The notes below the pieces were generated by a model that worked only from the letters and a program-made list of their open reading frames with translations, was not told the DNA's origin and searched no databases. The translations under genes and the position numbers were made by a program. Positions 2 through 27,635 of a stretch of DNA of 40,629 nt are shown piece after piece. Numbering within the stretch: the stretch's first letter is position 1; every line of letters begins with the position of its first letter. Source of the stretch: a virus; IMG/VR virus record IMGVR_UViG_3300028806_000020, positions 1 to 40,629 of that record; one strand, 5' to 3'.

Positions 2-3000
2 GCAAATGGATATATTGTACTTCGAGACTATGGAGAGTCACTTTTCGGAACTTTAGCCAATCCTGTCTCACCTGCCACCTCATATACGATTACTTGGACA
101 ATGCAGTTCAATTCCCGCGATACTACTTTTGGAGGCGAAGGACTCATCGTTAAACCCTTTTGGCAATCGGATAATAGTTGCTATGAGTTCGTTATTTTAA
201 ATGATGGAACAAATACTTGGACATTAAATAAAGTTGTTGCATCAACAAGGACACAACTTAAATCAGGAACATTTGGTTTTGCTTGGGGAACGAATGTATC
301 CCATACCTTTAAAATTGATGTCGGACAAGCAACCAGTGGGAAAATAAATATTTCACTCGATGGAACAGCTCTCTATACCACTAATTCTGCTTCAACTGAT
401 GCGGGACTAACAGGCGGTCAAGTTGCCTGGTATGCACAGGGGGTCCATGTGCAACTTAGTGATATGATTTTAAATGTTGCAGGAGATACCACAAGTGGAG
501 GACTTGAGACATTGCGGGTTGGTGATCCAGGATTGACAACCGCAAACTTTGAGAACTTCTGGACAGCGGTTGCGACAGCATATGCAGATAATGAAACGGT
601 TTTAGGCTACGACTTGATGAATGAACCGCATGATATGCCTGTTCCGACTTCCCCATCAAATTATAAAGTAACGGCTGCAAATACAGGACTTCACTCACTA
701 ACCTATCGTTCGATTGATGCAATGAAATTAACAAAGGATAATATTACTAATCAAGTGCCTACAGCGTATATAACCGCGTATTGTAACTTTTTAGCGGCAC
801 ATTTCAATTTGACGCATATTGGTATTTCAATTCCCCTAGACACAACGGCTGCTTTTACCGCTAATGGGTCAACCCCTTCTCCTTTAACCGCTGAACAGTA
901 TTTAGCTGCTTGGTGTACGGCTATCCATAATGCGGGATTAAAAGTTCTTTATCGCGGGACGTTTTGTAATATGGAGAATATTTATAATTTTCCTTACTTA
1001 CCGTATGGAAACGCTGGGTTTGTTCCCCAGGGTACTACCTCTTCAGCACCTACGGATGGTACAACTACCTGGCTTGGAAGAGTATACTCTCGTATCCAAA
1101 CCATAGGATCTAACTTTGAGTCAGGGGATATTTTCGCACCTTTCCCAGAGCAAACAAGTTATGTCTTTAATGGTAACTCGTTTCTTTCAACAGCAGGCAG
1201 TGGTATACAAGCTAACTATTATTCTTTCTTTGAAGACTTGCCAACGGTAATTACTGATGCGTTTACTAATTTGTCTATCTCAGGAGTTGTCACTAATCTT
1301 ACATCGAACAATTATTCAGAACTTCGCTCAGGTTGGCTTAATTCTACTTTTGTTACAACCGTTGGGGCACAGGCAGTTGATTATTATGGGAACTATAATA
1401 ACGATGGGTATACCCCTGCACAATTTGGAGCCGATCTAGCAACAATCTATTCACAGAATGGTAATACGGCAATTTTTCTTCAAGAGTTTGCCGATATTCA
1501 GAATCTAGATTTAGATGAGGCGGATCGTATAACCTATCTTACTGAGTTCTATACAGAACTTGCTTCCTTACAAAGTGCGGGAAAACTCAACGGGTTTAAT
1601 TATTGGGGAGGATGGGACTCAAGCATCGGAGATGGAGGCGAACAGATTCTTATTAATTCAGGAACGCTTGAAAACCCTGTTTTCGGGATTAATTATAACG
1701 GTGTAGTATTACAATCTTTCTTCCAAGCAAGTGGGAATATCGAGTCAACGGTTACCGCCATGATGCAGGCTGCAATAACTGGGATTAGAACTGAGGACTC
1801 AACACACTACATTTTTGCTGAAACAGACGAATGGGCAGGAGGACAAAACTTTGCTCAACAATACGGGAGTAACCCAACGCCTTGGCTGACAGACTCAGAT
1901 AATAAACTTGTGTATTCCTTCCACTATTACTTTGACGATGACCATTCGGGAACCTATCCGATTGCCTTTGCATCAACGAATAATACGAACATTCCTGGGG
2001 ACGTAACACCGATTATGGAATGGGCACAAAATAACAATCAACTGTTATATGCAGGTGAGTATGGAGTACCCGCAATAGAGGATTGGCAGATATGTCTTTC
2101 AACCTTCTTAGCTCTTGCCAATCAATATGATGTCTGGGCTACCTATTGGGCAGCGGGAGACGCGTATACTTCTATTACCACAATTCAACCAGGCGGGTCA
2201 TATCCAAATTATATAGACCAATTACAAATGGCAATTGTGGGCTTACCTGCAAACCTGCAAAATATTGTTAAAGGGCCGCAACCGCAATTTACTTATGACT
2301 TTCTTACAGCTTCGGGGGGAGTACCAACTAATACCTACTCGCTTGAGCTTCTTGCAGATGCCAGCCAGTACGCAACAGCCGACTCTAGTGACTCACTTAA
2401 GATTACCAGTGATTTAACTTTAGAGGCATACGTTGCGTTACTTACGTTACCTGCTGTAGGTGACTCAATGTCTATTGTTGGTAAATGGGATGCCTCAGGA
2501 ACTACACAATCCTATCTTATGGATCTGTATGCGATTAGTGGTTTCTTTGGTAACGGACAGGATGGAGAGCTTATTGTTACTTCAAATGTAACTCAAGCAC
2601 CAATTGACTCAGCGTGTGTTGGAACGGCAGGAGCATATGTGCTTAATGCGAGTAATGCAAGTTTTGCGCCAGGACAAGTCATTGTTATTTGGCAAACGCA
2701 AGGGACAAATGCAGGACAAGAAGAGCGTAATGTTATTGCCGGATATAATGGGTCACAAATCACGCTACAAACTCCGCTACAGGGAACGTATACAACGGGG
2801 GCGCAAGTTATTGTTATTCCACAATATACGAGTGGGACAATTAATGCAACGTGCACATGGTCTGCGAAAGCATGGAATGGGACAACGGGCGGTCGATTAG
2901 TAGGATTATTTACCAGTACATTTACGAATAACGGAACTGTTCTTGGCGATGGACTCGGTTTTAGAGGTGGGGTTACTCAAGGCTCCTATCAAGGAGCGAC

Positions 3001-5584
3001 TGGAGAAGGTTCTGTGGGTGCGTCTCTTCAACCGCCGGCCAACCAAAACTATGATGCCTATACTTTAGACAATCCTAATGGTTCAGGCGGTGGTGGCGGT
3101 TCAACTGATGTTAATCAACTTTACTCAGGCGCAGGTGGAGGAGGAAATGGAACACAAGGAACGAATGGTTTATCAATTAATGGAGGAGTCAATCTTGCCA
3201 TAGGTGGGCTTGCTCTGGGGACAGCAGATTTGACTGCTATGTCTCCTGGTGGGGGCGGTGGGGGCGGCTCCTTAGTTTCAGCCAGTGGTACAAACACAGG
3301 GGGTAATGGAGGAGCATGTATTGATATTAACGCTGTTACAATTACAGGGACGGGGCTCTTTAGCAGTAACGGAACAAACGCAATTACTTCAACATCTGCT
3401 AAAAATTCAGGTTCGGGAGGAGGAGCTGGTGGCTCAATCAGACTTAAAACACAAATCGCAACTATGACTGATCTTACTTGCTCAGCAGAAGGCGGTGAGG
3501 GCTCAGCAGGAGTGGGTGCGGGAACAAACGCGAATGGTGGTAGTGGAGGGCAAGGTATTATTGCAATTTCATATCTTACCTCATATGCAGACGGTACAGA
3601 GACTCCAACCCCTACCTATATTCAGGATAATACCTTGGTGACGACAGCTACCTATCAATTACGACTTCACATCTCAAGTAATGGAGTCTTAAATGAAATT
3701 TTAGCAATTAATCTGCCAGGTCTTTCAACAGGAGCTTGGAACAGGTTTTCAATTACTTGGACTGCCTCATCTTCTCTTGCAAACTTTTATGTTAATGGAG
3801 GACTTATCGGCTCAACTGTAGGAAGTGCAACCGCAATTGACTCTAACGCGGGAGCGTTGTTTGTGGGAGCTGATAATAACGCAAGTGGGGATCCTGAGAA
3901 CTTTCTCAACGGATATATTAATGATGTCCGTATCTGGGCTGGAGCAGAGGATTCACAAATTAACTCACTCTATAACGTGCAGTTATCAGGTAATCAACAA
4001 AACCTCGCAGCATATTACACCTTTAACAATACAGCCGATGACATATCGGCAAATGGTAATAACTTAACCCTTGAAAACTCACCGTTATATTCAATAAATG
4101 TACCGTTTACAGGTTCGCTACCATTAAATATAGATCAGCAGTACACAACAAATGGCGATACCTATGCAATCCCTACAACAATCTCAGAGAGTTTAGCTAA
4201 TCAATTACCCTTCACTCCACAATTTGATCCGCAGTTGTCGATGGATGTCGACGTAGCTGATCCAGGAACAGGAGACTGGACACTTACCATTCACGATGAA
4301 TCAAATAACGTGATTGCTCAACAAACGGTTAAAAACTCTCGTCTTGTATCAAGTGGCTATCAGTTATTTATCTGGAATACTCCCTGGCGAATTGTCATAG
4401 GTAATAACTACCATGCTCATCTTACAAGTACTGTTGATGATGGGACTATTGTTACAAGTCACTCAAACGCTCTACAAAGTGGTGGGTTAGTAACAGCAGA
4501 TTTTCATACGTACTATCAATTCTTAGTAACTGATACTTCCTATCATCCAATGGCAAGATGGCTTAATTTCTTGGTAATAGGAAATGAGAGATACTTGGCA
4601 ACCTGGAACGGAGCCTTTTATCAGCCGAACCTTATTGCTTTTCCCGCAGGAACGCACGTTCGATGCTTTGGTGTCTGGGGTGCGTATCTCGCAATTGGTA
4701 CCTGGCAGGAAACAAACTCAGGAACCCCTAATATCTATGACTGGGCAAAAGGAACTATCTATTTCTGGGATGGGATTTCACTAACCTTTAACTTCTCAAT
4801 TGATGTTCCTGAAGGACAAGTCAATGCGATATACGGTATGGATGCTGACTTGTATTACATTGCAGGCTACAAGGCTGATCTTATGTATTATCACGGGTCA
4901 TTTGCCAATCAGTCAGGCTCATTTAACGGAACAAAGGTCAAGCGTGTACCGTACCTGGAACGCTCATCGTATATTGAAACCTACCCTCAGGCTATGGCTA
5001 TGTGGCAAGGACTTTTGTATTTTGGCATGGGTGGGGCTTCAGACTCGGTGAATTTCCCGCGTAATGTCTATTCCTGGGGGACTTTATATCCTCAATATGC
5101 ACAGACTCTTTCTTCTGATTATGTCATTTCCACTGGTAGGAATGGCTCAACGGTGAAGATTGGGTTGGTCTATCCCGTAGGCAAGAAACTGCTAATTGGT
5201 TGGCAGGATGGGCTAGCCTACGGGGTGGATGTCATTGACCCTGATAGTGGACAGTTTTATCAATCAGGGTATTTGCAAACACTGATCCAAGATGGGGGAA
5301 CCGTATGGCATGAGGATTTACTGGTTAAAATGCGGGCAGATCATCTGGTATTAAACGCAGGGGAAAGTGTACAAATTGGCGCGTATCTGGATCGCTCAAG
5401 TGTGCTCTCATTAGTGAATTGTGCAACGGATACCTCTAGTCGGTTTACAGTTAATACAATGGAGCAAGGAAGGGTGTTTGAATATCAGTTACAGGCTAAT
5501 TTGAATGGGAATGGGTCGAGTAGTCCAAGTGTGTTGGATGTGACAGGTGGGGTGAACCCGCTCGACAGCGAGAGTCAGTATTGA
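2..5584 (+). CDS. Large chimeric tail/adsorption protein with glycosidase-like and LamG domains (5' partial)
   Basis: The frame is open from the first bases, so the ATG at 101 is probably internal and the true start lies upstream. Visible order: a concanavalin-like sandwich (about 60-480); a GH5-like segment with a GYDLMNEPH motif, the acid/base Glu codon at 623; a second TIM-barrel-like segment (about 760-1740) with Glu candidates at 1148 (FPEQ) and 1484 (FLQEFAD); the GH5-like C-terminal half with LLYAGEYGVP, nucleophile Glu codon at 2057; a LamG domain starting about 2337; a Gly-rich stretch (about 2550-3600); the rest of LamG (3640-4090); and a propeller-like C-terminus (4500-5560). It probably binds and degrades a host surface polysaccharide. 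The stop is TGA. Domain limits are estimates; the role as tail fibre or spike is inferred from domains and neighbours. Confidence 0.8.
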   Translation, partial: ANGYIVLRDYGESLFGTLANPVSPATSYTITWTMQFNSRDTTFGGEGLIVKPFWQSDNSCYEFVILNDGTNTWTLNKVVASTRTQLKSGTFGFAWGTNVSHTFKIDVGQATSGKINISLDGTALYTTNSASTDAGLTGGQVAWYAQGVHVQLSDMILNVAGDTTSGGLETLRVGDPGLTTANFENFWTAVATAYADNETVLGYDLMNEPHDMPVPTSPSNYKVTAANTGLHSLTYRSIDAMKLTKDNITNQVPTAYITAYCNFLAAHFNLTHIGISIPLDTTAAFTANGSTPSPLTAEQYLAAWCTAIHNAGLKVLYRGTFCNMENIYNFPYLPYGNAGFVPQGTTSSAPTDGTTTWLGRVYSRIQTIGSNFESGDIFAPFPEQTSYVFNGNSFLSTAGSGIQANYYSFFEDLPTVITDAFTNLSISGVVTNLTSNNYSELRSGWLNSTFVTTVGAQAVDYYGNYNNDGYTPAQFGADLATIYSQNGNTAIFLQEFADIQNLDLDEADRITYLTEFYTELASLQSAGKLNGFNYWGGWDSSIGDGGEQILINSGTLENPVFGINYNGVVLQSFFQASGNIESTVTAMMQAAITGIRTEDSTHYIFAETDEWAGGQNFAQQYGSNPTPWLTDSDNKLVYSFHYYFDDDHSGTYPIAFASTNNTNIPGDVTPIMEWAQNNNQLLYAGEYGVPAIEDWQICLSTFLALANQYDVWATYWAAGDAYTSITTIQPGGSYPNYIDQLQMAIVGLPANLQNIVKGPQPQFTYDFLTASGGVPTNTYSLELLADASQYATADSSDSLKITSDLTLEAYVALLTLPAVGDSMSIVGKWDASGTTQSYLMDLYAISGFFGNGQDGELIVTSNVTQAPIDSACVGTAGAYVLNASNASFAPGQVIVIWQTQGTNAGQEERNVIAGYNGSQITLQTPLQGTYTTGAQVIVIPQYTSGTINATCTWSAKAWNGTTGGRLVGLFTSTFTNNGTVLGDGLGFRGGVTQGSYQGATGEGSVGASLQPPANQNYDAYTLDNPNGSGGGGGSTDVNQLYSGAGGGGNGTQGTNGLSINGGVNLAIGGLALGTADLTAMSPGGGGGGGSLVSASGTNTGGNGGACIDINAVTITGTGLFSSNGTNAITSTSAKNSGSGGGAGGSIRLKTQIATMTDLTCSAEGGEGSAGVGAGTNANGGSGGQGIIAISYLTSYADGTETPTPTYIQDNTLVTTATYQLRLHISSNGVLNEILAINLPGLSTGAWNRFSITWTASSSLANFYVNGGLIGSTVGSATAIDSNAGALFVGADNNASGDPENFLNGYINDVRIWAGAEDSQINSLYNVQLSGNQQNLAAYYTFNNTADDISANGNNLTLENSPLYSINVPFTGSLPLNIDQQYTTNGDTYAIPTTISESLANQLPFTPQFDPQLSMDVDVADPGTGDWTLTIHDESNNVIAQQTVKNSRLVSSGYQLFIWNTPWRIVIGNNYHAHLTSTVDDGTIVTSHSNALQSGGLVTADFHTYYQFLVTDTSYHPMARWLNFLVIGNERYLATWNGAFYQPNLIAFPAGTHVRCFGVWGAYLAIGTWQETNSGTPNIYDWAKGTIYFWDGISLTFNFSIDVPEGQVNAIYGMDADLYYIAGYKADLMYYHGSFANQSGSFNGTKVKRVPYLERSSYIETYPQAMAMWQGLLYFGMGGASDSVNFPRNVYSWGTLYPQYAQTLSSDYVISTGRNGSTVKIGLVYPVGKKLLIGWQDGLAYGVDVIDPDSGQFYQSGYLQTLIQDGGTVWHEDLLVKMRADHLVLNAGESVQIGAYLDRSSVLSLVNCATDTSSRFTVNTMEQGRVFEYQLQANLNGNGSSSPSVLDVTGGVNPLDSESQY

Positions 5585-5590
5585 TACTAT
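5562..5590 (+). promoter_or_regulatory. Promoter for the 5597 gene, leaderless geometry
   Basis: TCGACA (5562-5567), 17 bp, TACTAT (5585-5590). The A of the ATG at 5597 is seven bases after the -10, so the transcript should begin at the start codon. There is no SD. The element lies inside the 3' end of the upstream gene. Confidence 0.5.
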
Positions 5591-5596
5591 TACATT

Positions 5597-8152
5597 ATGC
5601 AAGACTTTTTAAATCAATTAATGGGTGCAGCAAAGTCAATTGAAGGTGCTGTTGGAAATGTAACAAATACCATAGGACAAGGAGCGCAAGCCGCTGGACA
5701 AGATATTGCAAAAGCAGTAACACCACAACCGCAAGTAGCTACTCCACCGCCAGTGTCAACAGTGCCAGTAAGTCAATTACCACAAACGCCTGTTGCCCTT
5801 GCTCCACAACAAAGTACTCCAACTGCAAGTATAAATCAGTTACCATCACAAGGAGGAGTTGTTTCTCAAATAGGATATAACCTATCACCACAAGGGATAA
5901 AAGCAACATTGCAAAAAGGTGGGAACACTCCCGTTATACAAGAACTTGCAGGAAAAGAAGGGCCAAATGCTCAAGCGGTTGCAGGAATGGGAATGGTGGG
6001 AGATGCCGACACTGGAGGAGGTGCATTTCGTCCTGTTAAGCCTGGAGAAGTTTTACCACAGGGATATACAACAAGAATGAATATGGCAACGGGGGAACAA
6101 ATGACAAATGCTCCCGATACAACACAAATTATTGATCCAAAAACAGGACAACCGATTGTTAAACCACAACTGCCAGAAGGTCAAAATGGAGATCAGTTCG
6201 TCTTTCCATCAAAACCATTAACAGGGGGAACGCCTGCAAAGGTAGCAGCAAGACCTTTTATTCCTCCTGCTACACCTGATCTTGTTCCAGGAGGCGCGAT
6301 GAAGCCACCAACTGAGGAAGGATTACCATCAATAGGAGAAACTCCACAAGCAGTACCATCAGCAACAGAACAACCTATCGAGCCGCAAGCTCCTGGTGTA
6401 CCTTCGCCTGCATCAAATTACACTCGTACTTTTGATGTAACTGATCCAAATATTCACCCGTCAGCTATTGATCCACATGAAGATATGATGCGTAATTTAG
6501 AGGTGGATGGATCAGATATAAAAACACAACAACAAAAAGCTCAGGTCAATGCTACGGCAAATGGGTATGGTATTAAAGGATCCCAGACACAACAATCAGG
6601 CTTAATTAATGATGCAATAGATACTTTAGCAAAACGAGCAAAAGTTAATATTGCGGCAACCGGTGGAACAATTGCCAAGAGTGATCTTATTAATGAAGTT
6701 GCTAAGGGTATCTTTAAAGTGGCAGGACAGCATGATATAGACCCTAATGCTGTTATGAAAATGGCAGAAGATACGGTCAATAATGCCTATGCGAGAGTTA
6801 AGGGTGTAGATGCAAACGGAAGCTACTCAACAGAAGCCCCAGATCAGATACCAGGAGTTGATGCGCAAGACATGAAAACACAGTTTAATAGTGACTCAAG
6901 TAGTACGTTTGGCAAAGATCCTTCAACCTGGACAAAAGCGCAAAAGACAGCACGTCCTGCAAGAGATGCTGTAGATAAACTCTTAGGGGAGCAATATCCT
7001 GCTGCAAAAAAACTTAATAACGATATGTCAGATTTATATAATGCTAAGGAGTCATTACGAAAAGGATCAAATACTGAGGGAACCGCGGCTAAAAAGGCAT
7101 ATATGGATCAAGAGAAAGCCACACAAGACGCAGCAAATGCACCAAAAAAACCAAATATAGGAAGCAAAATTATAAAAGGAGTAGGAGCGACAGCTCTTGT
7201 AGGGGGATTATTAATGGGAGCGGATGCGTTAAGTGCTAATACTCCAATAGGCTATTCATCTGCCACCCCGCAAAACCCACAAGGGAATACTCAAAATGGA
7301 TCCGAAAAACAAAATGCCCCCAATGGCAAAAATTCCGTTGGCAACACAAGTCAAAATATCACTAATCATGGTCAGAGTGTAACACAAACTCCTTCAAATG
7401 TCAATAGTCTTGAGACAGATCCGACAAAAGTACAACTTGACGGAAACGGGCAGGTAAATCCTCCTGACTACACAAAAGTTAAAAATTCTGTCGGGCAGCC
7501 AGTTTTGGTAACAGATGCCGATTTTCAAGCACAAGGTGATGCAATTCGCGCTCAAGCAAATGCTGATCCTGGTAATAAACTTGTGCAAAGTCAGGCTGCA
7601 CAAAACGCATTGGCATTAAAAACAGCGTATGATGCAACCTCTGATTTTCGTACACAATATAAGAAAGCACAACCCGCATTGCAACAAATAACTAGTACTT
7701 TACAGAGTATCAGCCCGTCAAATACTCCTAATTTTGGAGACTCAATTGAGGCAAATTTGCCGGTAATAGGAGACGTGGGGCTTCAAGAAGTACATTCCAT
7801 GTTTAATCAAAATTATGGAACTTTACTAGGACAGGCAAAAGCATCAGATAAAATGGCAAGTTCATTCGGGTTTGATATGAACGCAGCGGGAGCAAATAAC
7901 GCGGGGACGATGAGAAGTCGTTTACAATTAGAAGCGCAAAAGATTGTTGCATATCTTAATCAACAAGCAAAAACCAGTGGATCAACAAGTCTCCCGACTA
8001 CACCTGTCATCCCTCCTAATAATCAAGGTGGGGATACTGGGGGGACGGGACAAATGCCAAGTACACCACAACCTCTAGGAAATCAGATAGCACCTGCAAA
8101 TCCAAACTGGGGAAAAATGAGCGTTACGCCTCAGCCGATCGTAGCTAATTAA
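5597..8152 (+). CDS. Large Q/P/A-rich virion protein, candidate internal or ejection protein
   Basis: 851 residues. The N-terminus is amphipathic (MQDFLNQLMGAAKSIEGAVG), followed by a long Pro/Gln/Thr-rich low-complexity part. One hydrophobic helix lies near residues 525-545 (GVGATALVGGLLMGADAL). The last 250 residues are helical and Ala/Gln-rich, ending in another Pro-rich tail. No enzyme motif was recognised. Large proteins of this composition beside tail and lysin genes are often DNA-ejection or internal virion proteins in short-tailed phages; a tape-measure role is the alternative. It overlaps the convergent minus-strand gene by 8 bp at the 3' end. The start is supported by the promoter at 5562-5590. 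Confidence 0.7.
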   Translation: MQDFLNQLMGAAKSIEGAVGNVTNTIGQGAQAAGQDIAKAVTPQPQVATPPPVSTVPVSQLPQTPVALAPQQSTPTASINQLPSQGGVVSQIGYNLSPQGIKATLQKGGNTPVIQELAGKEGPNAQAVAGMGMVGDADTGGGAFRPVKPGEVLPQGYTTRMNMATGEQMTNAPDTTQIIDPKTGQPIVKPQLPEGQNGDQFVFPSKPLTGGTPAKVAARPFIPPATPDLVPGGAMKPPTEEGLPSIGETPQAVPSATEQPIEPQAPGVPSPASNYTRTFDVTDPNIHPSAIDPHEDMMRNLEVDGSDIKTQQQKAQVNATANGYGIKGSQTQQSGLINDAIDTLAKRAKVNIAATGGTIAKSDLINEVAKGIFKVAGQHDIDPNAVMKMAEDTVNNAYARVKGVDANGSYSTEAPDQIPGVDAQDMKTQFNSDSSSTFGKDPSTWTKAQKTARPARDAVDKLLGEQYPAAKKLNNDMSDLYNAKESLRKGSNTEGTAAKKAYMDQEKATQDAANAPKKPNIGSKIIKGVGATALVGGLLMGADALSANTPIGYSSATPQNPQGNTQNGSEKQNAPNGKNSVGNTSQNITNHGQSVTQTPSNVNSLETDPTKVQLDGNGQVNPPDYTKVKNSVGQPVLVTDADFQAQGDAIRAQANADPGNKLVQSQAAQNALALKTAYDATSDFRTQYKKAQPALQQITSTLQSISPSNTPNFGDSIEANLPVIGDVGLQEVHSMFNQNYGTLLGQAKASDKMASSFGFDMNAAGANNAGTMRSRLQLEAQKIVAYLNQQAKTSGSTSLPTTPVIPPNNQGGDTGGTGQMPSTPQPLGNQIAPANPNWGKMSVTPQPIVAN

Positions 8153-14562: not shown

Positions 14563-15267
14563 ATGGCAAAAACAATGCAAATAGATAATAAGATTTATAA
14601 CGATGCGTGGTTTTTTTCATTGTCACCAGAAGCAAAGTGGTTGTTTGTTTTTCTTCTTACTAATGATACCTGCAATTTAATCGGATGTTACGAAATGCCT
14701 TTTCAAATAATTATTTCTTATACGGGACTTTCTACTAAAAAAATTGACCTATGTTTTAAGGAATTAAAAGACAAAATTATTTATAAAGACGGGTGGATTA
14801 TTATTAAAAATTTCTTAAAATACAGTTCTAACAACAATCCAAGTATAGAAATTGCTAAAAAGAAACAATTAGCCTCATTACCTGAAAAAATAAACACCCT
14901 GTATACAGGGTGGGTACAGGGTGTAAAAACTTTTTACACCTATAACGATAACGATATAGATAATGATAAAGATATTGATATAGATAAAGATAAAGATAAG
15001 AAAAGGGTTGTTAAGGGAAAAACATTAAATGATTTATCAGAAGAAGATATAGAACAAATAGCACAGGATTACAAAGTGCCAACTGCTTTTGTTCTCTCAA
15101 AAATTGATGACATGAAAAACTACTGTATGGCAAAAGGTAAAGTCTATAAAGATTATAAAGCGGCACTCCGCAACTGGGTAAAAAAAGACGCTATGGAAAG
15201 AAAGGAGGTAATCAATGGAAAATCAAAAATCACAGTTATCACGCCAGACCCAAATTGGAATACCTGA
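14563..15267 (+). CDS. DnaD-like phage replication protein (replisome organiser)
   Basis: 234 residues from ATG 14563 (MAKTMQIDNKIYND); an in-frame ATG at 14545 is less likely. The N-terminal 100 residues form the winged-helix-like domain of phage replication initiators (AWFFSLSPEAKWLFVFLLTN, GLSTKKIDLCFKELKD). A low-complexity Asp/Asn/Lys/Ile linker (about 130-148) follows, and the C-terminal helical part (EDIEQIAQDYKVP...DYKAALRNWVKKD) matches the DnaD-type tail that ends many such proteins. It likely loads the host helicase at the phage origin; the candidate origin is 0.7 kb upstream. Confidence 0.65.
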   Translation: MAKTMQIDNKIYNDAWFFSLSPEAKWLFVFLLTNDTCNLIGCYEMPFQIIISYTGLSTKKIDLCFKELKDKIIYKDGWIIIKNFLKYSSNNNPSIEIAKKKQLASLPEKINTLYTGWVQGVKTFYTYNDNDIDNDKDIDIDKDKDKKRVVKGKTLNDLSEEDIEQIAQDYKVPTAFVLSKIDDMKNYCMAKGKVYKDYKAALRNWVKKDAMERKEVINGKSKITVITPDPNWNT

Positions 15268-16418: not shown

Positions 16419-17186
16419 ATGAAAAAAAAGACATCACTTCAAAAAGTAGAAACAAAAGCACCAGCGTTTAATATTGAGACTTTGATTAGTCAAGCGGTTT
16501 CCCAGAATACCTCTGTGGAGTCACTAGAACGCCTTTTAGCCCTCCGAAAACAACTTAAAGATGAATGGGCTAGAGAACAATATGTAAGGGCTCTAGTCGC
16601 ATTTAAAGCCCAATGTCCAAAGATTGAAAAAAGAAAAGCTGTTTACGAGAAAGATAAAAAAACAATTCGTTATAAATTTGCTCCTCTTGAAGATATTGAT
16701 GAGCAGATAAAAAAACCTCTTGCTGATAATGGACTTTCATATAATTTTAATCCAGTAAATAAAGACAACATGGTTGGCGTTAATTGCACGATTACTCATA
16801 TTGCTGGACATTCTGTTACAAGCGAACCGTTCTTTTTACCAGTTGGAAGCGAGCAGTTTATGTCAGAAGTTCAAAAATTTGGCGCAAGAATGACATTTGC
16901 GAAACGATACGTTTTACTTATGGCGCTTGGTATCAATACCGCAGATGAAGATACAGATGCACAAGAGAAACCCGCAGTCGATACAGTCGGTATTGATGAG
17001 GAAGATATCAAGGCAATTGACGAGTCAACAAATCAAGATGAGCTTTTGAAACTTTGCAGTGATTTAAAAAAGAAATATCCGAAAAAACTTAAAACACTTT
17101 TGAATTTATACACAATCCGAAAAGCTGAGATTGAAGAGGCAGAAGCCGAAGATATAAACGCAAAGGCAGAAAAGGATTTGAAATAA
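16419..17186 (+). CDS. erf: ERF-family single-strand annealing recombinase
   Basis: 255 residues. The ERF core is clear: ALVAFKAQCPKIEK, IRYKFAPLEDIDEQIKKPL, DNGLSYNF, CTITHIAGHSV and FGARMTFAKRYVLLMALGI, followed by an acidic DEDTDAQ stretch. The C-terminal 70 residues are a Lys/Glu-rich helix. A good SD (AAGGAG) precedes the ATG. ERF proteins anneal complementary single strands during phage recombination and genome circularisation. It is paired with the YqaJ-type exonuclease 150 bp downstream, the usual two-component arrangement. Confidence 0.88.
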   Translation: MKKKTSLQKVETKAPAFNIETLISQAVSQNTSVESLERLLALRKQLKDEWAREQYVRALVAFKAQCPKIEKRKAVYEKDKKTIRYKFAPLEDIDEQIKKPLADNGLSYNFNPVNKDNMVGVNCTITHIAGHSVTSEPFFLPVGSEQFMSEVQKFGARMTFAKRYVLLMALGINTADEDTDAQEKPAVDTVGIDEEDIKAIDESTNQDELLKLCSDLKKKYPKKLKTLLNLYTIRKAEIEEAEAEDINAKAEKDLK

Positions 17187-17332: not shown

Positions 17333-17920
17333 ATGAAGATAATAACTGAATTTGACCAAAGAACAGACGAATGGCTTCAATATAAGCTCGGTAAGTTTGG
17401 AGCAACAGATGGGCAAGCAATTGCAACCAACGGTAAAGGACTTGAAACACTTTGCTTTGAAAAAGTAAGCGAGCGATTAACGGGTAAGCCAAACAGTGAA
17501 TATACAAATCCTGCTATGGAAAATGGCAACACGCTTGAAGAGGAAGCGAGAAATGCGGTAGAGCTTGAGTATGGCACACTAATTACGCAAGTCGGGCTTA
17601 TCGAAATGAATGAACATGTTATTTGTAGTCCTGACGGATTGGTCAAAGATGATGGATTGGTTGAGATAAAATGTCCTTCTAACCGTGTCTTTGTCGAGTA
17701 CTTATACTTCAAAAAGATTGACCCGAAGTATCTCGCTCAAATGCAAATGCAGCTATTTATCTCAGAGCGAAAATGGGTTGATTATGCGCTTTATAACCCA
17801 AATTTCCAGAGGTCGCTTGTTATCACTAGAGTCGAACGGGATGAGGTAATGATTGAAAAATTGAAAGTCGGGATAGAGTTGGGAATTGCAAGAATTACTG
17901 AAATTTTATCTAAAATATGA
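17333..17920 (+). CDS. YqaJ/lambda-exonuclease family recombination nuclease
   Basis: 195 residues, usual for the family. Motifs: FDQRTDEWLQYKLGKFGATD near the N-terminus (helix and catalytic surround), GNTLEEEARNAVE, then the PD-(D/E)xK active site SPDGLV...LVEIKCPSN, and QMQMQLFISERKWVDYALY as the Q-motif helix. It degrades one strand from double-strand ends to give the single strands annealed by the ERF protein. The TGA stop overlaps the next ATG. Confidence 0.88.
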   Translation: MKIITEFDQRTDEWLQYKLGKFGATDGQAIATNGKGLETLCFEKVSERLTGKPNSEYTNPAMENGNTLEEEARNAVELEYGTLITQVGLIEMNEHVICSPDGLVKDDGLVEIKCPSNRVFVEYLYFKKIDPKYLAQMQMQLFISERKWVDYALYNPNFQRSLVITRVERDEVMIEKLKVGIELGIARITEILSKI

Positions 17921-18096
17921 AAGAAAAGAGTCAGTCAAAACGCATAAGGGATTTGCTCTACCGTATCTGGGAGAACTCTAATACTCGGATAAAAGATTCT
18001 GAAATATTTTACCAAATTAGAACTAATGAGATTATTGAAGGATTGCAGAAGGAATTGAGTGAGTTGACCGAGCCACCTGTACCAGAAGATATATGA
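17917..18096 (+). CDS. Small hypothetical protein next to the repeat array
   Basis: 59 residues, basic N-terminal helix (SQSKRIRDLLYRIWENS) and an acidic C-terminus (ELSELTEPPVPEDI). It overlaps the exonuclease stop at its start and its own TGA overlaps the ATG of the first hexamer-array unit (ATGA at 18093-18096). No family recognised. Confidence 0.6.
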   Translation: MKEKSQSKRIRDLLYRIWENSNTRIKDSEIFYQIRTNEIIEGLQKELSELTEPPVPEDI

Positions 18097-18332
18097 ATAA
18101 CTTTCCATTAATAGCAGGATATGATCTTTATTATCGGAGCAGGAGCATGAGCAGGAGCATGAGCAGGAGCGGGAGCGGGAGCATGAGCAGGAGCATGAGC
18201 AGGAGCGGGAGCGGGAGCGGGAGCTGGAGCAGGAGCTGGAGCAGGAGCAGGAGCGGGAGCTGGAGCAGGAGCTGGAGCGGGAGCATGAGCAGGAGCGGGA
18301 GCTGGAGCGGGAGCAGGAGCTGGAGCATATAA
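18093..18332 (+). CDS. Repeat-unit ORF 1, poly(Ser-X), doubtful coding status
   Basis: 79 codons: [16 protein letters not shown] then Ser alternating with Arg, Met, Gly or Trp, ending WSI. Parallel ORFs lie at 18335-18550 (71), 18553-18726 (57) and 18729-18926 (65). The first start is coupled to the previous stop (ATGA); the others follow a TAA by two bases with GGAG nine bases upstream of the ATG. All four frames stay open, because the hexamer never makes a stop in this frame. Variation here changes amino acids, which argues against strong protein selection. The antisense frame gives four TAATG-linked ORFs of (Pro/His-Ala)n at 18108-18944, where most variation is synonymous, but no SD precedes them. 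Confidence 0.35.
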   Translation: MNNFPLIAGYDLYYRSRSMSRSMSRSGSGSMSRSMSRSGSGSGSWSRSWSRSRSGSWSRSWSGSMSRSGSWSGSRSWSI

Positions 18333-18960
18333 CCATGAATAACTTTCCATTAATAGCAGGATATGATCTTTATTATCGGAGCAGGAGCAGGAGCAGGAGC
18401 GGGAGCGGGAGCTGGAGCAGGAGCTGGAGCAGGAGCAGGAGCGGGAGCAGGAGCTGGAGCAGGAGCATGAGCAGGAGCAGGAGCAGGAGCTGGAGCGGGA
18501 GCGGGAGCGGGAGCTGGAGCGGGAGCGGGAGCGGGAGCTGGAGCATATAACCATGAATAACTTTCCATTAATAGCAGGATATGATCTTTATTATCGGAGC
18601 AGGAGCGGGAGCGGGAGCGGGAGCTGGAGCAGGAGCATGAGCAGGAGCAGGAGCATGAGCAGGAGCAGGAGCAGGAGCATGAGCAGGAGCGGGAGCGGGA
18701 GCAGGAGCTGGAGCTGGAGCATATAACCATGAATAACTTTCCATTAATAGCAGGATATGATCTTTATTATCGGAGCAGGAGCTGGAGCTGGAGCGGGAGC
18801 AGGAGCTGGAGCAGGAGCAGGAGCGGGAGCAGGAGCAGGAGCAGGAGCAGGAGCATGAGCAGGAGCAGGAGCATGAGCAGGAGCGGGAGCGGGAGCGGGA
18901 GCAGGAGCTGGAGCTGGAGCATATAACCATGAATAACTTTCCATTAATAGCAGGATATGA
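18093..18960. repeat. Compound tandem array: four units of constant 56 bp plus 20-31 four-letter hexamers
   Basis: Units start at 18093, 18335, 18553 and 18729 (242, 218, 176, 200 bp); a fifth is truncated after 32 bp at 18929-18960. Each has a 45-bp head (ATGAATAACTTTCC and onward), an array of hexamers, and an 11-bp tail AGCATATAACC. Unit length minus 56 is always a multiple of six: 31, 27, 20 and 24 hexamers. Every hexamer is AGC followed by AGG, ATG, GGG or TGG and nothing else; ATG is always followed by AGG. All arrays start with AGCAGG and end with AGCTGG. The array follows the recombination genes and precedes the integrase. Confidence 0.9.
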
Positions 18961-18975
18961 AAGGAGGTGACAAAT

Positions 18976-19338
18976 ATGAGTAAAACAAAAGAAGATTTAC
19001 AAAAAGAATTAGAAGAACTCGAAAAATTAGAGAATAAAGTACAAGAAAAAAAATCAACACTTGAATATAAAAAACTTGATGTTCCTTTTAAAATTGGTGC
19101 TAATTACTTTATCCGAACTGTTACTTACTTTGCAACAGGTAAGGTTAAGGCAATTGTTGGTCAATTTCTTGTTCTTGAAGATGCAGCATGGATAGCCGAT
19201 ACAGGACGATTTATGGAGGCAATCATGGAAGGAAAGCTAAACGAGGTTGAACCTGTATCAGTAGATATGTTTATTAATATTAACTCTATAACGGATGCTT
19301 TTGTTTGGAAGCATGATCTTCCAAGAAAGCAGAAATAA
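18976..19338 (+). CDS. Conserved-type phage protein with N-terminal coiled coil
   Basis: 120 residues from ATG 18976, with an excellent SD (AAAGGAGGTG) eight bases upstream; a GTG at 18967 overlaps that SD and is not used. Residues 3-35 form a coiled coil (KEDLQKELEELEKLENKVQE); the rest is beta-rich (GANYFIRTVTYFATGKVKAIV; GQFLVLEDAAWIADTGRF). The second half looks like a familiar small phage protein, but I cannot name its function. The SD overlaps the truncated fifth repeat unit. Confidence 0.65.
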   Translation: MSKTKEDLQKELEELEKLENKVQEKKSTLEYKKLDVPFKIGANYFIRTVTYFATGKVKAIVGQFLVLEDAAWIADTGRFMEAIMEGKLNEVEPVSVDMFININSITDAFVWKHDLPRKQK

Positions 19339-19378
19339 GTTTTGAGCTGGGTGCGATAGCGTGATCCGCACGATAGAT

Positions 19379-20302
19379 ATGAAAACTTTACAAACACACA
19401 TAGACGATTTTTTGAGATACCTGGATGTAGAGAAAAACTCAAGTAAGCTCACAATCCGTGAGTACAGACGGTATTTAAGGACGTTTCGACAATGGTTTGA
19501 CCAAAATTATCCAGACTCTACCATTGAAGATTTAGATATGCCAATAATCCGAGCGTTTAGAGTTTATTTATCCGAACGTGCTAATGTTCGAGGGGGCAAC
19601 TTGGCAAAAGTATCACAAAACCATTACGTTATTTGCTTGCGGTCATTTCTGAAATATCTGTTAAAGAATGACGTTTCCACACTCGAACCGAGTAAAATAG
19701 AGCTGCCAAAGACTCACTCACGCTCTCCAAAATTCCTAGATTCCTCGCAAGTTGAAAAATTACTGGCAATGCCGGATATAAAAACCTCATGGGGTTTGCG
19801 TGACCGCACAATCCTTGAGTTATTTTTCAGTACAGGCTTGCGAGTCTCAGAGCTTTTTAGATTGAACCGAGATAGCGTTAATCTGACCCGTAAAGAGTTT
19901 TCTATAGTTGGCAAAGGTGACAAAACACGACTGGTGTTTATTTCAGACGATTGTGCAAAATGGATTGAAAAATATCTGAATATTAGAGAAAAAGATAATT
20001 TTAAGCCACTTTTTGTGAGATATTCGCAAAAAAGGGATCAAAATGGGGAAAAAATGCGACTTTCAGTCAGTTCGATAGAAAGAATGGTCAAGAGTTACAT
20101 TAAACTTGCTGGTATTCCAGTAGATGCTACACCACATACGCTTCGTCACTCTTTCGCCTCGGATCTTTTGAGGAACGGAGCAAATTTGATACAGGTGCAA
20201 AAGATGCTTGGACACTCGAATGTTGCGACAACGCAAATCTATACTCATGTTACAGACGATGAATTGCGTGAAGCTCACAAAAAGTTTCATGCGAACAAGT
20301 AG
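19379..20302 (+). CDS. Tyrosine recombinase / integrase, XerD-like
   Basis: 307 residues from ATG 19379 (a GTG at 19361 is possible). The N-terminal SAM-like domain (about 1-85) and catalytic domain (about 105-300) are complete. Active-site motifs: FSTGLRVSEL (Arg), GKGDKTR (Lys), HTLRHSFASDLL (His-x-x-Arg), LGHSNVATTQIYTHV (His and the nucleophile Tyr). It ends DDELREAHKKFHANK, a form I associate with candidate-phyla-radiation XerD proteins. It could integrate the phage or resolve multimers; no att site was identified, though the array upstream is a possible location. Confidence 0.88.
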   Translation: MKTLQTHIDDFLRYLDVEKNSSKLTIREYRRYLRTFRQWFDQNYPDSTIEDLDMPIIRAFRVYLSERANVRGGNLAKVSQNHYVICLRSFLKYLLKNDVSTLEPSKIELPKTHSRSPKFLDSSQVEKLLAMPDIKTSWGLRDRTILELFFSTGLRVSELFRLNRDSVNLTRKEFSIVGKGDKTRLVFISDDCAKWIEKYLNIREKDNFKPLFVRYSQKRDQNGEKMRLSVSSIERMVKSYIKLAGIPVDATPHTLRHSFASDLLRNGANLIQVQKMLGHSNVATTQIYTHVTDDELREAHKKFHANK

Positions 20303-25743: not shown

Positions 25744-26043
25744 ATGACTACAACAAAGCTACCAATAACAGCCTCGCCAGGAATCTACCTCGTTGAACGT
25801 ATAGAAGATGACTCACAAATAAATGTTGGTAAATCCAAAGACAAAAAGATCCTTATGGGTAAGGTTGTTTCAGTCGGGGAAAATCGTGAGCATGATGACG
25901 GAGGCAAGATGGTTTCAGTCTACAAAGTCGGTGACATTATTTGGTTTTTTTCGTACGTTGATGGTGCTGATGAGTTTGAATATGAGAGAAAGAAATATCA
26001 CTGTGTTATTTTCCATGACGCGAGGGCTAAATTAGAAAAATGA
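25744..26043 (+). CDS. groES: Phage co-chaperonin GroES
   Basis: 99 residues, normal length. ASPGIYLVERIEDDS is the first strand, followed by the loop region and GKVVSVGENREHDDG, VGDIIWFFSYVD and HCVIFHDARAKLEK at the end. The mobile loop is short and lacks the usual GGIVL-type hydrophobic tripeptide (it reads DSQINVGKSKDKK), so contact with GroEL may be adapted to the partner encoded next. The TGA overlaps the groEL ATG. It caps the chaperonin chamber during ATP-driven folding. Confidence 0.85.
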   Translation: MTTTKLPITASPGIYLVERIEDDSQINVGKSKDKKILMGKVVSVGENREHDDGGKMVSVYKVGDIIWFFSYVDGADEFEYERKKYHCVIFHDARAKLEK

Positions 26044-27635
26044 ATATAAAAACAGACATCATCTCAGGTACAGAAGCACAAGATAAAATCCTAACAGGTG
26101 CTAAAAAAGTACATGACCCTGTATCCTCATCACTCGGCCCTAGTGGCAGAAATGTTGCTATTTCATATGTGAACGAGCAAAACAACCGCATGAATGTAAT
26201 TTTGTGTGACGGAGTAACAATTGCAGCCTCTATTGCTTTAGATGATGAGTACGAAAACGTAGGAGCCTCCTTTATTAAAGAAGCAGCTCGAAAGACTGTT
26301 GATGAAGTGGGAGATGGTACAACCGTATCAGTAATTCTCAGCTATGCAATCCATAAGGAAATTAACAAACTCGTGGCAGCAGGACATGACCCGATGCTCC
26401 TTCGTAAAGGCATAGAGAAAGCTACTGAGCAGATGATTGATGAGATTAAAAAACTCTCTATTCCTGTCAAGACCCTAGAGCAAAAACAACAAATCGCTAG
26501 AGTCAGTGCAAAAGATGATGAGCTTGGGGATTTAGTGGCTGAGTGTATCCATGACATCGGAGCCGAGGGGTTGGTAGTCATAGATGAGTCAACAAGTCCA
26601 GTAACTAAAGTTGAGAAACAAAAAGGATTTCAGTTTGATAAGGGGTGGGCAGCCCAAGAGTTTATGACCGATCCGCGTAGAGGTTTAGCCACATTAGAAA
26701 ATCCATATATCCTCATAACCGATGAGTTTGTTAAAGACATCGAACCCATAAGAGATTTACTCAATGACCTCGCGGGTAAGAGTCAAAAGCTCGTCTTTAT
26801 TGCTGGTAGTTTTGGCCTAGAAGTGGCAGGCTTGATGGTTGATAATAAAAATAAGGTTTTTAATGGCAGACCACTCCTCCCGAACTTACTCATCGAAGCT
26901 CCCTCATTCGGACAGAATCAAAAGAATATCATGCAAGATATAGCTATCCTTACAGGGGGTAAGTTCTTCTCACGCTCAACAGGGCTTGATATTAAAGACG
27001 CAACAATTGATGATTTAGGCAGATGTGGATTTGTCAAATCTACTAAAACAGAAACGATAATCGCAGAACCAACAGCAACTAAGGAGGATATCAAAGCAAG
27101 AATTGATGAGATAAAGAAATCAATTGAAACTGAGGATTTGGAATACGACAAGGATAAAATAAAAGAACGATTGGCTCGCTTCACAAGTGGTGTTTCTGTT
27201 ATTCGAGTAGGGGGAGCGACTGAGGCTGAGATGAAAGAACGTAAGGAAAGAGTCAAAGACTCAGTCGCAGCAGTTAAAGCAGCAGTCAAAAAAGGGATTG
27301 TTCCTGGAGGGGAAGTTATTTATTTGACAGTGAGAGAGAAGCTAGATCAGAAAGATATTGCACAAAATATTCTCTATAAAGCATTTTATGAGCCATTTAG
27401 AATATTGCTTACTAATGCTGGCATGAATGATGGCGAGTGGTATGAGAAATTAAAGAGTCAGAGTAAAACAATGGGTGTCAATGTTGCTAAACAGACAATA
27501 GTTGATATGATAAAAGATGGAGTCATTGACCCTTCCAGTGTTTCAGTAGAGGCTTTGAAAAATGCTTCATCAATGGCTATCCTTAATAGCTCAGTTGGTT
27601 ATGAGATTATCCAGAAGGATATTGATAAAAAATGA
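26040..27635 (+). CDS. groEL: Phage chaperonin GroEL
   Basis: 531 residues against about 545 in bacteria. Conserved: SSLGPSGRNVAI, CDGVTIA (Asp57, equivalent to Asp52), VGDGTTVSVILS (Asp92, equivalent to Asp87), FDKGWAAQEFMTDP, APSFGQNQKNIMQDIAILTGG, ERKERVKDSVAAVKAAV and IVPGGEVIY. A few extra residues lie before the first ATPase Asp, and the C-terminal Gly-Gly-Met tail is missing (ends IIQKDIDKK). It should fold phage proteins in the host cytoplasm with the phage GroES. Placed just before the packaging and capsid genes, which may be its clients. Confidence 0.95.
   Translation: MNIKTDIISGTEAQDKILTGAKKVHDPVSSSLGPSGRNVAISYVNEQNNRMNVILCDGVTIAASIALDDEYENVGASFIKEAARKTVDEVGDGTTVSVILSYAIHKEINKLVAAGHDPMLLRKGIEKATEQMIDEIKKLSIPVKTLEQKQQIARVSAKDDELGDLVAECIHDIGAEGLVVIDESTSPVTKVEKQKGFQFDKGWAAQEFMTDPRRGLATLENPYILITDEFVKDIEPIRDLLNDLAGKSQKLVFIAGSFGLEVAGLMVDNKNKVFNGRPLLPNLLIEAPSFGQNQKNIMQDIAILTGGKFFSRSTGLDIKDATIDDLGRCGFVKSTKTETIIAEPTATKEDIKARIDEIKKSIETEDLEYDKDKIKERLARFTSGVSVIRVGGATEAEMKERKERVKDSVAAVKAAVKKGIVPGGEVIYLTVREKLDQKDIAQNILYKAFYEPFRILLTNAGMNDGEWYEKLKSQSKTMGVNVAKQTIVDMIKDGVIDPSSVSVEALKNASSMAILNSSVGYEIIQKDIDKK

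Follow-up and report, generated by a model that had tools for sequence, protein, structure and literature searches.

Results

Organization of the locus

The window, that is, the whole stretch of DNA analysed here, is an IMG/VR virus record of 40,629 bp. It carries four tandem genes for low-complexity proteins in which Ser alternates with a second residue, X (hereafter SX proteins), and the gene of a predicted Sm/LSm-fold protein (hereafter Sm-like). These genes and their neighbours are as follows.

16419–17186, + strand: Erf-type single-strand annealing protein (PF04404, 7e-21)
17333–17920, + strand: YqaJ-like exonuclease (PF09588, 7e-19)
17917–18096, + strand: 59-aa ORF with no assigned function
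18093–18332, + strand: SX gene copy 1, 79 aa, with a 15-residue head; array at 18138–18323, 31 words; ends in SI*
18335–18550, + strand: SX gene copy 2, 71 aa; array at 18380–18541, 27 words
18553–18726, + strand: SX gene copy 3, 57 aa; array at 18598–18717, 20 words
18729–18926, + strand: SX gene copy 4, 65 aa; array at 18774–18917, 24 words
18929–18970, + strand: short ORF of a head remnant
18976–19338, + strand: predicted Sm/LSm-fold protein, type I, partner of SX, 120 aa (family search, AlphaFold2 model)
19361–20302, + strand: tyrosine integrase (PF00589, 5e-41)

Recomputing the units, hexamer counts and constant frame from the sequence reproduced the preliminary description of the repeat to the base. 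The units start at 18093, 18335, 18553 and 18729 and are 242, 218, 176 and 200 bp long, and each has a constant 56 bp, composed of a 45-bp head and the 11-bp tail AGCATATAACC, around its 31, 27, 20 or 24 hexamers (words). AGCAGG (43), AGCGGG (28), AGCTGG (20) and AGCATG (11) account for all 102 words, and with a TRF score of 919 for the repeat, chance is not an issue. A partial fifth unit, a 32-bp head remnant, occupies 18929–18960. The reported position between recombination genes and the integrase also stood, with Erf and YqaJ upstream and the integrase downstream, though the conserved 120-aa gene that intervenes had been missed.

The ATG of SX copy 1 overlaps the stop codon (TGA) of the upstream 59-aa ORF (ATGA at 18093), and copies 2–4 each come after TAACC. 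At the junction of copy 2, TAACCATG, the GGAG of the preceding array may act as a ribosome-binding site. The head remnant's short ORF runs into AAAGGAGG, which likely serves the Sm-like gene as ribosome-binding site. In the closest relative, L006, MNNLLKSF* stands at the equivalent place; in both records, a very short ORF starting with MNN directly precedes that ribosome-binding site (18929–18970 in the window, near 200–230 in L006), and it is possibly a coupling leader.

Elsewhere, the window encodes a GroEL-type chaperonin (26040–27635; phrog_5725, E 6e-117) and an 1827-aa ORF (101–5584) with only a weak match, to a phage family without known function (phrog_25311), and it contains a short degenerate ATAAAG repeat (14942–14999), which encodes an Asp/Lys/Ile/Asn run within a DnaD-like replication ORF.

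The array encodes SX proteins and recurs beside Sm-like genes

Each of the four units contains one complete ORF on the + strand of the form head-(Ser-X)n-Ser-Ile*, where X is Arg, Gly, Trp or Met. Using the 120-aa neighbour as a query, 86 relatives were found in viral contigs, and a profile search added further ones. A gene for a long Ser-X alternation, in which X is mostly Trp, Arg or Gly, was present at 80 of the 88 distinct loci, and SX-homologous genes with conserved heads, typically MNxAILRTGFDxS, were recognized at 82 loci, the window included, with two or three copies in several phages. Other reading frames, for example (Gly-Ala)n, (Glu-X)n or (Ala-Pro)n on the minus strand, were rejected, because they are out of frame with the conserved heads and their dipeptide would shift at every switch of Ser codon. 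The earlier view of the array as a DNA element written in a four-letter code thus gave way to that of a protein-coding array with counterparts next to Sm-like genes in many phages; that the array is coding and turns over fast is practically certain.

For 70 SX genes, the start codon lies near the stop codon of an Sm-like gene, within a range from 40 bp ahead of it to 120 bp beyond it. In 41 of the 70, L065 among them, the two genes share exactly 4 nt, ATGA, as is typical of genes whose translation is coupled. The window and L006 have SX first and the Sm-like gene second, opposite to most loci. As an independent sampling, viral contigs were scanned by DNA pattern alone, (TCGNGG)8 or (AGCNGG)7; leaving out plain (SR)n and (SW)n repeats, at least 156 varied arrays were obtained, 141 of them with a readable head. 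Among the matches listed, a type I Sm-like gene precedes 66 of these 141 arrays and one of type II precedes 26; in 21 further cases the stretch examined includes an Sm-like gene at another place, and in 28 it includes none. In several contigs classed as viral (within L288–L407), perfect runs of (AGCAGG)n or (AGCTGG)n are accompanied by neither heads nor Sm-like genes; they look like simple repeats, perhaps from eukaryotic DNA.

The heads of SX proteins differed in mean net charge according to their neighbour, being +0.4 with a type I partner and +3.1, with a basic KQKYR-like sequence, with a type II partner (p 1e-10). Because head type tracks Sm-like type, this co-variation suggests that the head touches its own Sm-like partner. 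The genes flanking the pair encode helicases, annealing proteins, exonucleases and HNH proteins.

Beyond viral contigs, a metagenome-assembled genome (MAG) of the FCB group carries a copy, the sole carrier among 132 genomes of its phylum, and a genome scan with one motif found two MAG contigs only. A plasmid search with type II gave no match, a phage nucleotide search with the window locus gave one weak match, and a degenerate search with the window's own head found none.

The partner is predicted to have an Sm/LSm fold

The type I and type II Sm-like proteins had no match in Pfam, NCBIfam or the PDB sequences, and type I touches phrog_9075 weakly. The two families are related to each other (hhalign E 3.9e-10), and the type II profile recovers the Sm-like gene of the window (E 4.4e-5). 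AlphaFold2 models were predicted with a pLDDT of 91.7 (type I) and 89.2 (type II), and both show the N-terminal helix and five-stranded bent sheet of the Sm fold. In Foldseek searches, the two models retrieved Sm/LSm chains from spliceosomal, Lsm and archaeal rings, and VIA-align gave Z 9.3 over 65 residues for type I and Z 10.5 over 70 residues for type II, with all listed rows being Sm/LSm. Z scores of 9–10 with uniform, domain-wide rows are good support that falls short of proof, and the fold does not give the function; on these models, the partner very probably has an Sm/LSm fold. The type II consensus GxLxGVN..VxLEDA and the type I GRGSI resemble Sm1 and Sm2 by eye, and the canonical RNA-contact motif of Sm proteins is likewise only partly recognizable by eye.

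The arrays change faster than their surroundings

The suspicion that the locus is hypervariable was borne out: between relatives with flanks about 99.8% identical, the arrays are scrambled or altered by some multiple of 6 bp. Between L125 and L126, there is 1 mismatch in 5.2 kb and a 60-bp array deletion; L048 and L049 show 9 mismatches outside the arrays, and 16 together with 6- and 12-bp indels inside; and L111 and L112 have 5 mismatches in the 3.2 kb upstream and arrays rearranged throughout. With indels of 6, 12, 48 and 60 bp, near-identical contigs show in-frame changes in unit number of the contingency type. On/off phase switching by frameshift was not found, the units being of six bases and the arrays remaining in frame.

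Short-read assembly errors in repeats could inflate such differences, and an artefact might be considered for the whole locus, as assembly through repeats is difficult and the array is where many contigs end. However, intact ORFs, in-frame lengths and conserved heads recurred in scores of contigs assembled from different samples, and some other near-identical contig pairs have identical arrays. With the same type of gene in scores of independent contigs, an origin in assembly is hardly conceivable.

Codon usage points to selection on composition

In 91 arrays, the mean entropy at the six hexamer positions was 0.13, 0.13, 0.14, 1.51, 0.41 and 0.26 bits. Essentially one Ser codon is used per array, and five are used across phages (TCG, AGC, TCA, TCT and AGT). 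Mapped onto a tree built from 75 Sm-like proteins, the Ser codon must have changed at least 25 times, 13 of them between AGY and TCN; this tree is weakly resolved, though its starred branches by themselves still force several changes. For Arg, 41 of 72 arrays rely on AGG alone, 24 on CGG alone, and 7 on both; the two SX copies of L028 differ from each other, one being built of TCA/CGG words and the other of AGC/AGG. The heterozygosity of the amino acid at X was 0.70, versus 0.05–0.07 for synonymous codons. In the pooled arrays, the shares of Arg, Gly and Trp among these three were approximately 0.35, 0.33 and 0.32, and the order of X was close to random given composition, with a mild excess of RG and a deficit of RR. 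Ser and Arg codons that are uniform within an array and dependent on the phage, together with about one third each of Arg, Gly and Trp, argue for selection on protein composition; as read from these codons, Ser and the Arg/Gly/Trp mix are maintained at the protein level.

The concentration of variation at hexamer position 4 is also what targeted mutagenesis of the type performed by diversity-generating retroelements would produce if it rewrote the fourth base of each word. However, a reverse transcriptase occurs in 1 of 50 related records and not in the window record, the A of the AGC Ser codons never varies in the window and hardly does in other arrays, the synonymous AGG and CGG are almost never mixed, and whole-hexamer indels are among the changes. 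We therefore give this explanation scarcely any credence, and it also failed in the simulations described below. What such retroelements have in common with SX is rapid change restricted to particular codon positions of a phage gene; in the present case, no template repeat was seen, and change proceeds by repeat turnover.

Arrays were simulated under in-frame duplications and deletions (multiples of six) and point mutation. When Arg, Gly and Trp were interchangeable (neutral), the array turned uniform, and targeted mutation at position 4 did not reproduce the observed pattern. When each of the three was held at 15–60%, bounds chosen by us, and break points could fall anywhere in a word, arrays starting from random synonymous codons reached nearly one Ser, one Arg and one Gly codon, with G as the third base in 96–100% and with AGG or CGG and rarely both, as observed. 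Two alternative simulations with break points at word boundaries were rejected, as they retained an excess variety of Ser codons; break points inside words are therefore needed. The GG would be fixed by TGG, the only codon of Trp, because mosaics between TGG and a codon with a non-G third base yield a stop or Cys. In L062, C occupies the third codon position, and Cys words are present too. Turnover and selection on composition thus reproduced the odd features of the DNA, including the fixed NGG, so that no special DNA mechanism is needed; in these simulations, the four-word alphabet, earlier taken for a code in its own right, is an emergent by-product of the two processes. The simulation covers the Arg, Gly and Trp words, and the Met word of the window is an extra outside it.

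In the window (18093–18928), that Met word, AGCATG, is followed by AGCAGG in 11 of 11 cases, and in L111/L112 the Met word TCTATG usually precedes TATTGG. Common descent of blocks may account for the AGCATG–AGCAGG succession, though not obviously for its strictness.

We also considered whether the array works as DNA or RNA, for example as a G-quadruplex-prone (GGN4)n tract, a structured RNA or a recombination hot spot, with coding incidental. GG recurs every six bases in nearly all phages with arrays, and annealing and exonuclease genes lie nearby. However, the GG is accounted for by the Trp codon, RNA folding was no better than in shuffled sequences (z 0.96), and Rfam gave no match; furthermore, the conserved heads, the ATGA overlap and a Ser kept constant through five codons require coding. 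A role of this kind is very improbable.

Discussion

Considering the above results, we propose the following scenario, in which the four tandem (Ser-X)n genes act with the partner Sm-like gene. The Sm-like protein may form a ring that binds RNA, on which the SX protein may dock via its head. The tail, presumed disordered, would provide Arg and Trp as "stickers" and Ser and Gly as "spacers" for multivalent RNA binding or condensation into a ribonucleoprotein (RNP). In-frame slippage or annealing recombination would shuffle the repeat order freely, because composition alone would matter, and this turnover would homogenize synonymous codons, with TGG holding almost all X codons to GG at their second and third bases. 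We regard this reading as a whole, with RNA ring, docking and order-free tail, as slightly more probable than its negation, and a function of the RNP type for the pair as having about an even chance. As the genes around the pair belong to DNA metabolism, the pair may also act on intermediates of replication or recombination.

Alternatively, SX may be coding and its rapid change adaptive, so that the diversity of repeat order is itself selected, for instance in evasion of a host sensor or in counter-defence. The change of the arrays far above the genome background and the differently ordered copies within one genome (the window, L022, L036, L052 and L062) are consistent with this. However, the near-random order given composition is what is expected of an order that is unimportant, and the pooled composition stays at about one third each; moreover, PADLOC gave no match, and an Sm-like gene as partner suggests a connection with RNA. 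Adaptive diversity of order is thus unlikely, although it deserves more weight than the other alternatives.

The alternating, Trp/Arg-rich and basic composition also recalls membrane-active or nucleic-acid-compacting peptides, and SX might accordingly serve in lysis, as an antimicrobial or in a protamine-like manner, independently of the Sm-like protein. Nevertheless, the flanking genes listed above provide no lysis-cassette setting, Arg makes up only about one residue in six of the SX protein, and both the tight coupling to Sm-like genes and the co-variation of head type tie it to its partner. We consider such a peptide improbable.

The SX and Sm-like proteins had no informative match in Pfam, PHROGs, NCBIfam or PADLOC, and their sole annotated phage relatives are labelled "hypothetical" or left unannotated. 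In agreement with the preliminary description, which knew of no such phage element, no family model, annotation or paper was found for the pair in a search that did not cover preprints and most subscription papers. Both Sm-fold proteins and coding repeats have precedents; within the reach of this search, none was found for the coupled pair or for a repeat protein whose composition is kept and whose order is free.

The partner resembles the Sm/LSm/Hfq superfamily (SmD1/SmD3/SmB, LSm4, archaeal SmAP and Hfq) in its predicted fold and differs in having no sequence match to solved Sm proteins. SmD1/SmD3/SmB and LSm4 bear RG or RGG tails. The phage pair likewise combines a predicted Sm-fold protein with an Arg/Gly/Ser-rich low-complexity sequence. 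In the phages, however, that sequence is encoded by a gene of its own, coupled to the Sm-like gene; it has Ser at every other residue, includes Trp and is hypervariable. We tentatively suggest, at somewhat less than even likelihood, that tailed phages of many uncultivated hosts encode a two-part RNP system composed of an Sm-like ring and a separately encoded, disordered Ser-[Arg/Gly/Trp] partner, composition-selected and order-free, which can condense on RNA. If so, this system would be a phage counterpart of the eukaryotic Sm/LSm proteins with RG tails, and the pair would suggest phage RNP assemblies resembling the Sm/LSm world. The pair is widespread and essentially unannotated in environmental phages. 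SX appears to be a clean natural case in which selection keeps the amino-acid composition and DNA turnover scrambles the order, making "composition, not sequence" directly testable.

The Ser-Asp repeat (Sdr/Clf) adhesins of staphylococci, in which X is Asp, are surface proteins anchored in the cell wall. They resemble SX in encoding Ser-X dipeptides from short tandem DNA units and are not homologous to it, the match of SX copy 1 to them being a weak, low-complexity one far below the cut-off. The DUF6948 (PF22253) phage proteins appear in the list of viral structures that match the partner, but belong to another Pfam family and occur in only 2 of 33 records with the pair. In L011 (5001–6386), an HNH-like ORF (5218–5778) lies between the Sm-like and SX genes, and a DUF6948 gene directly follows SX.
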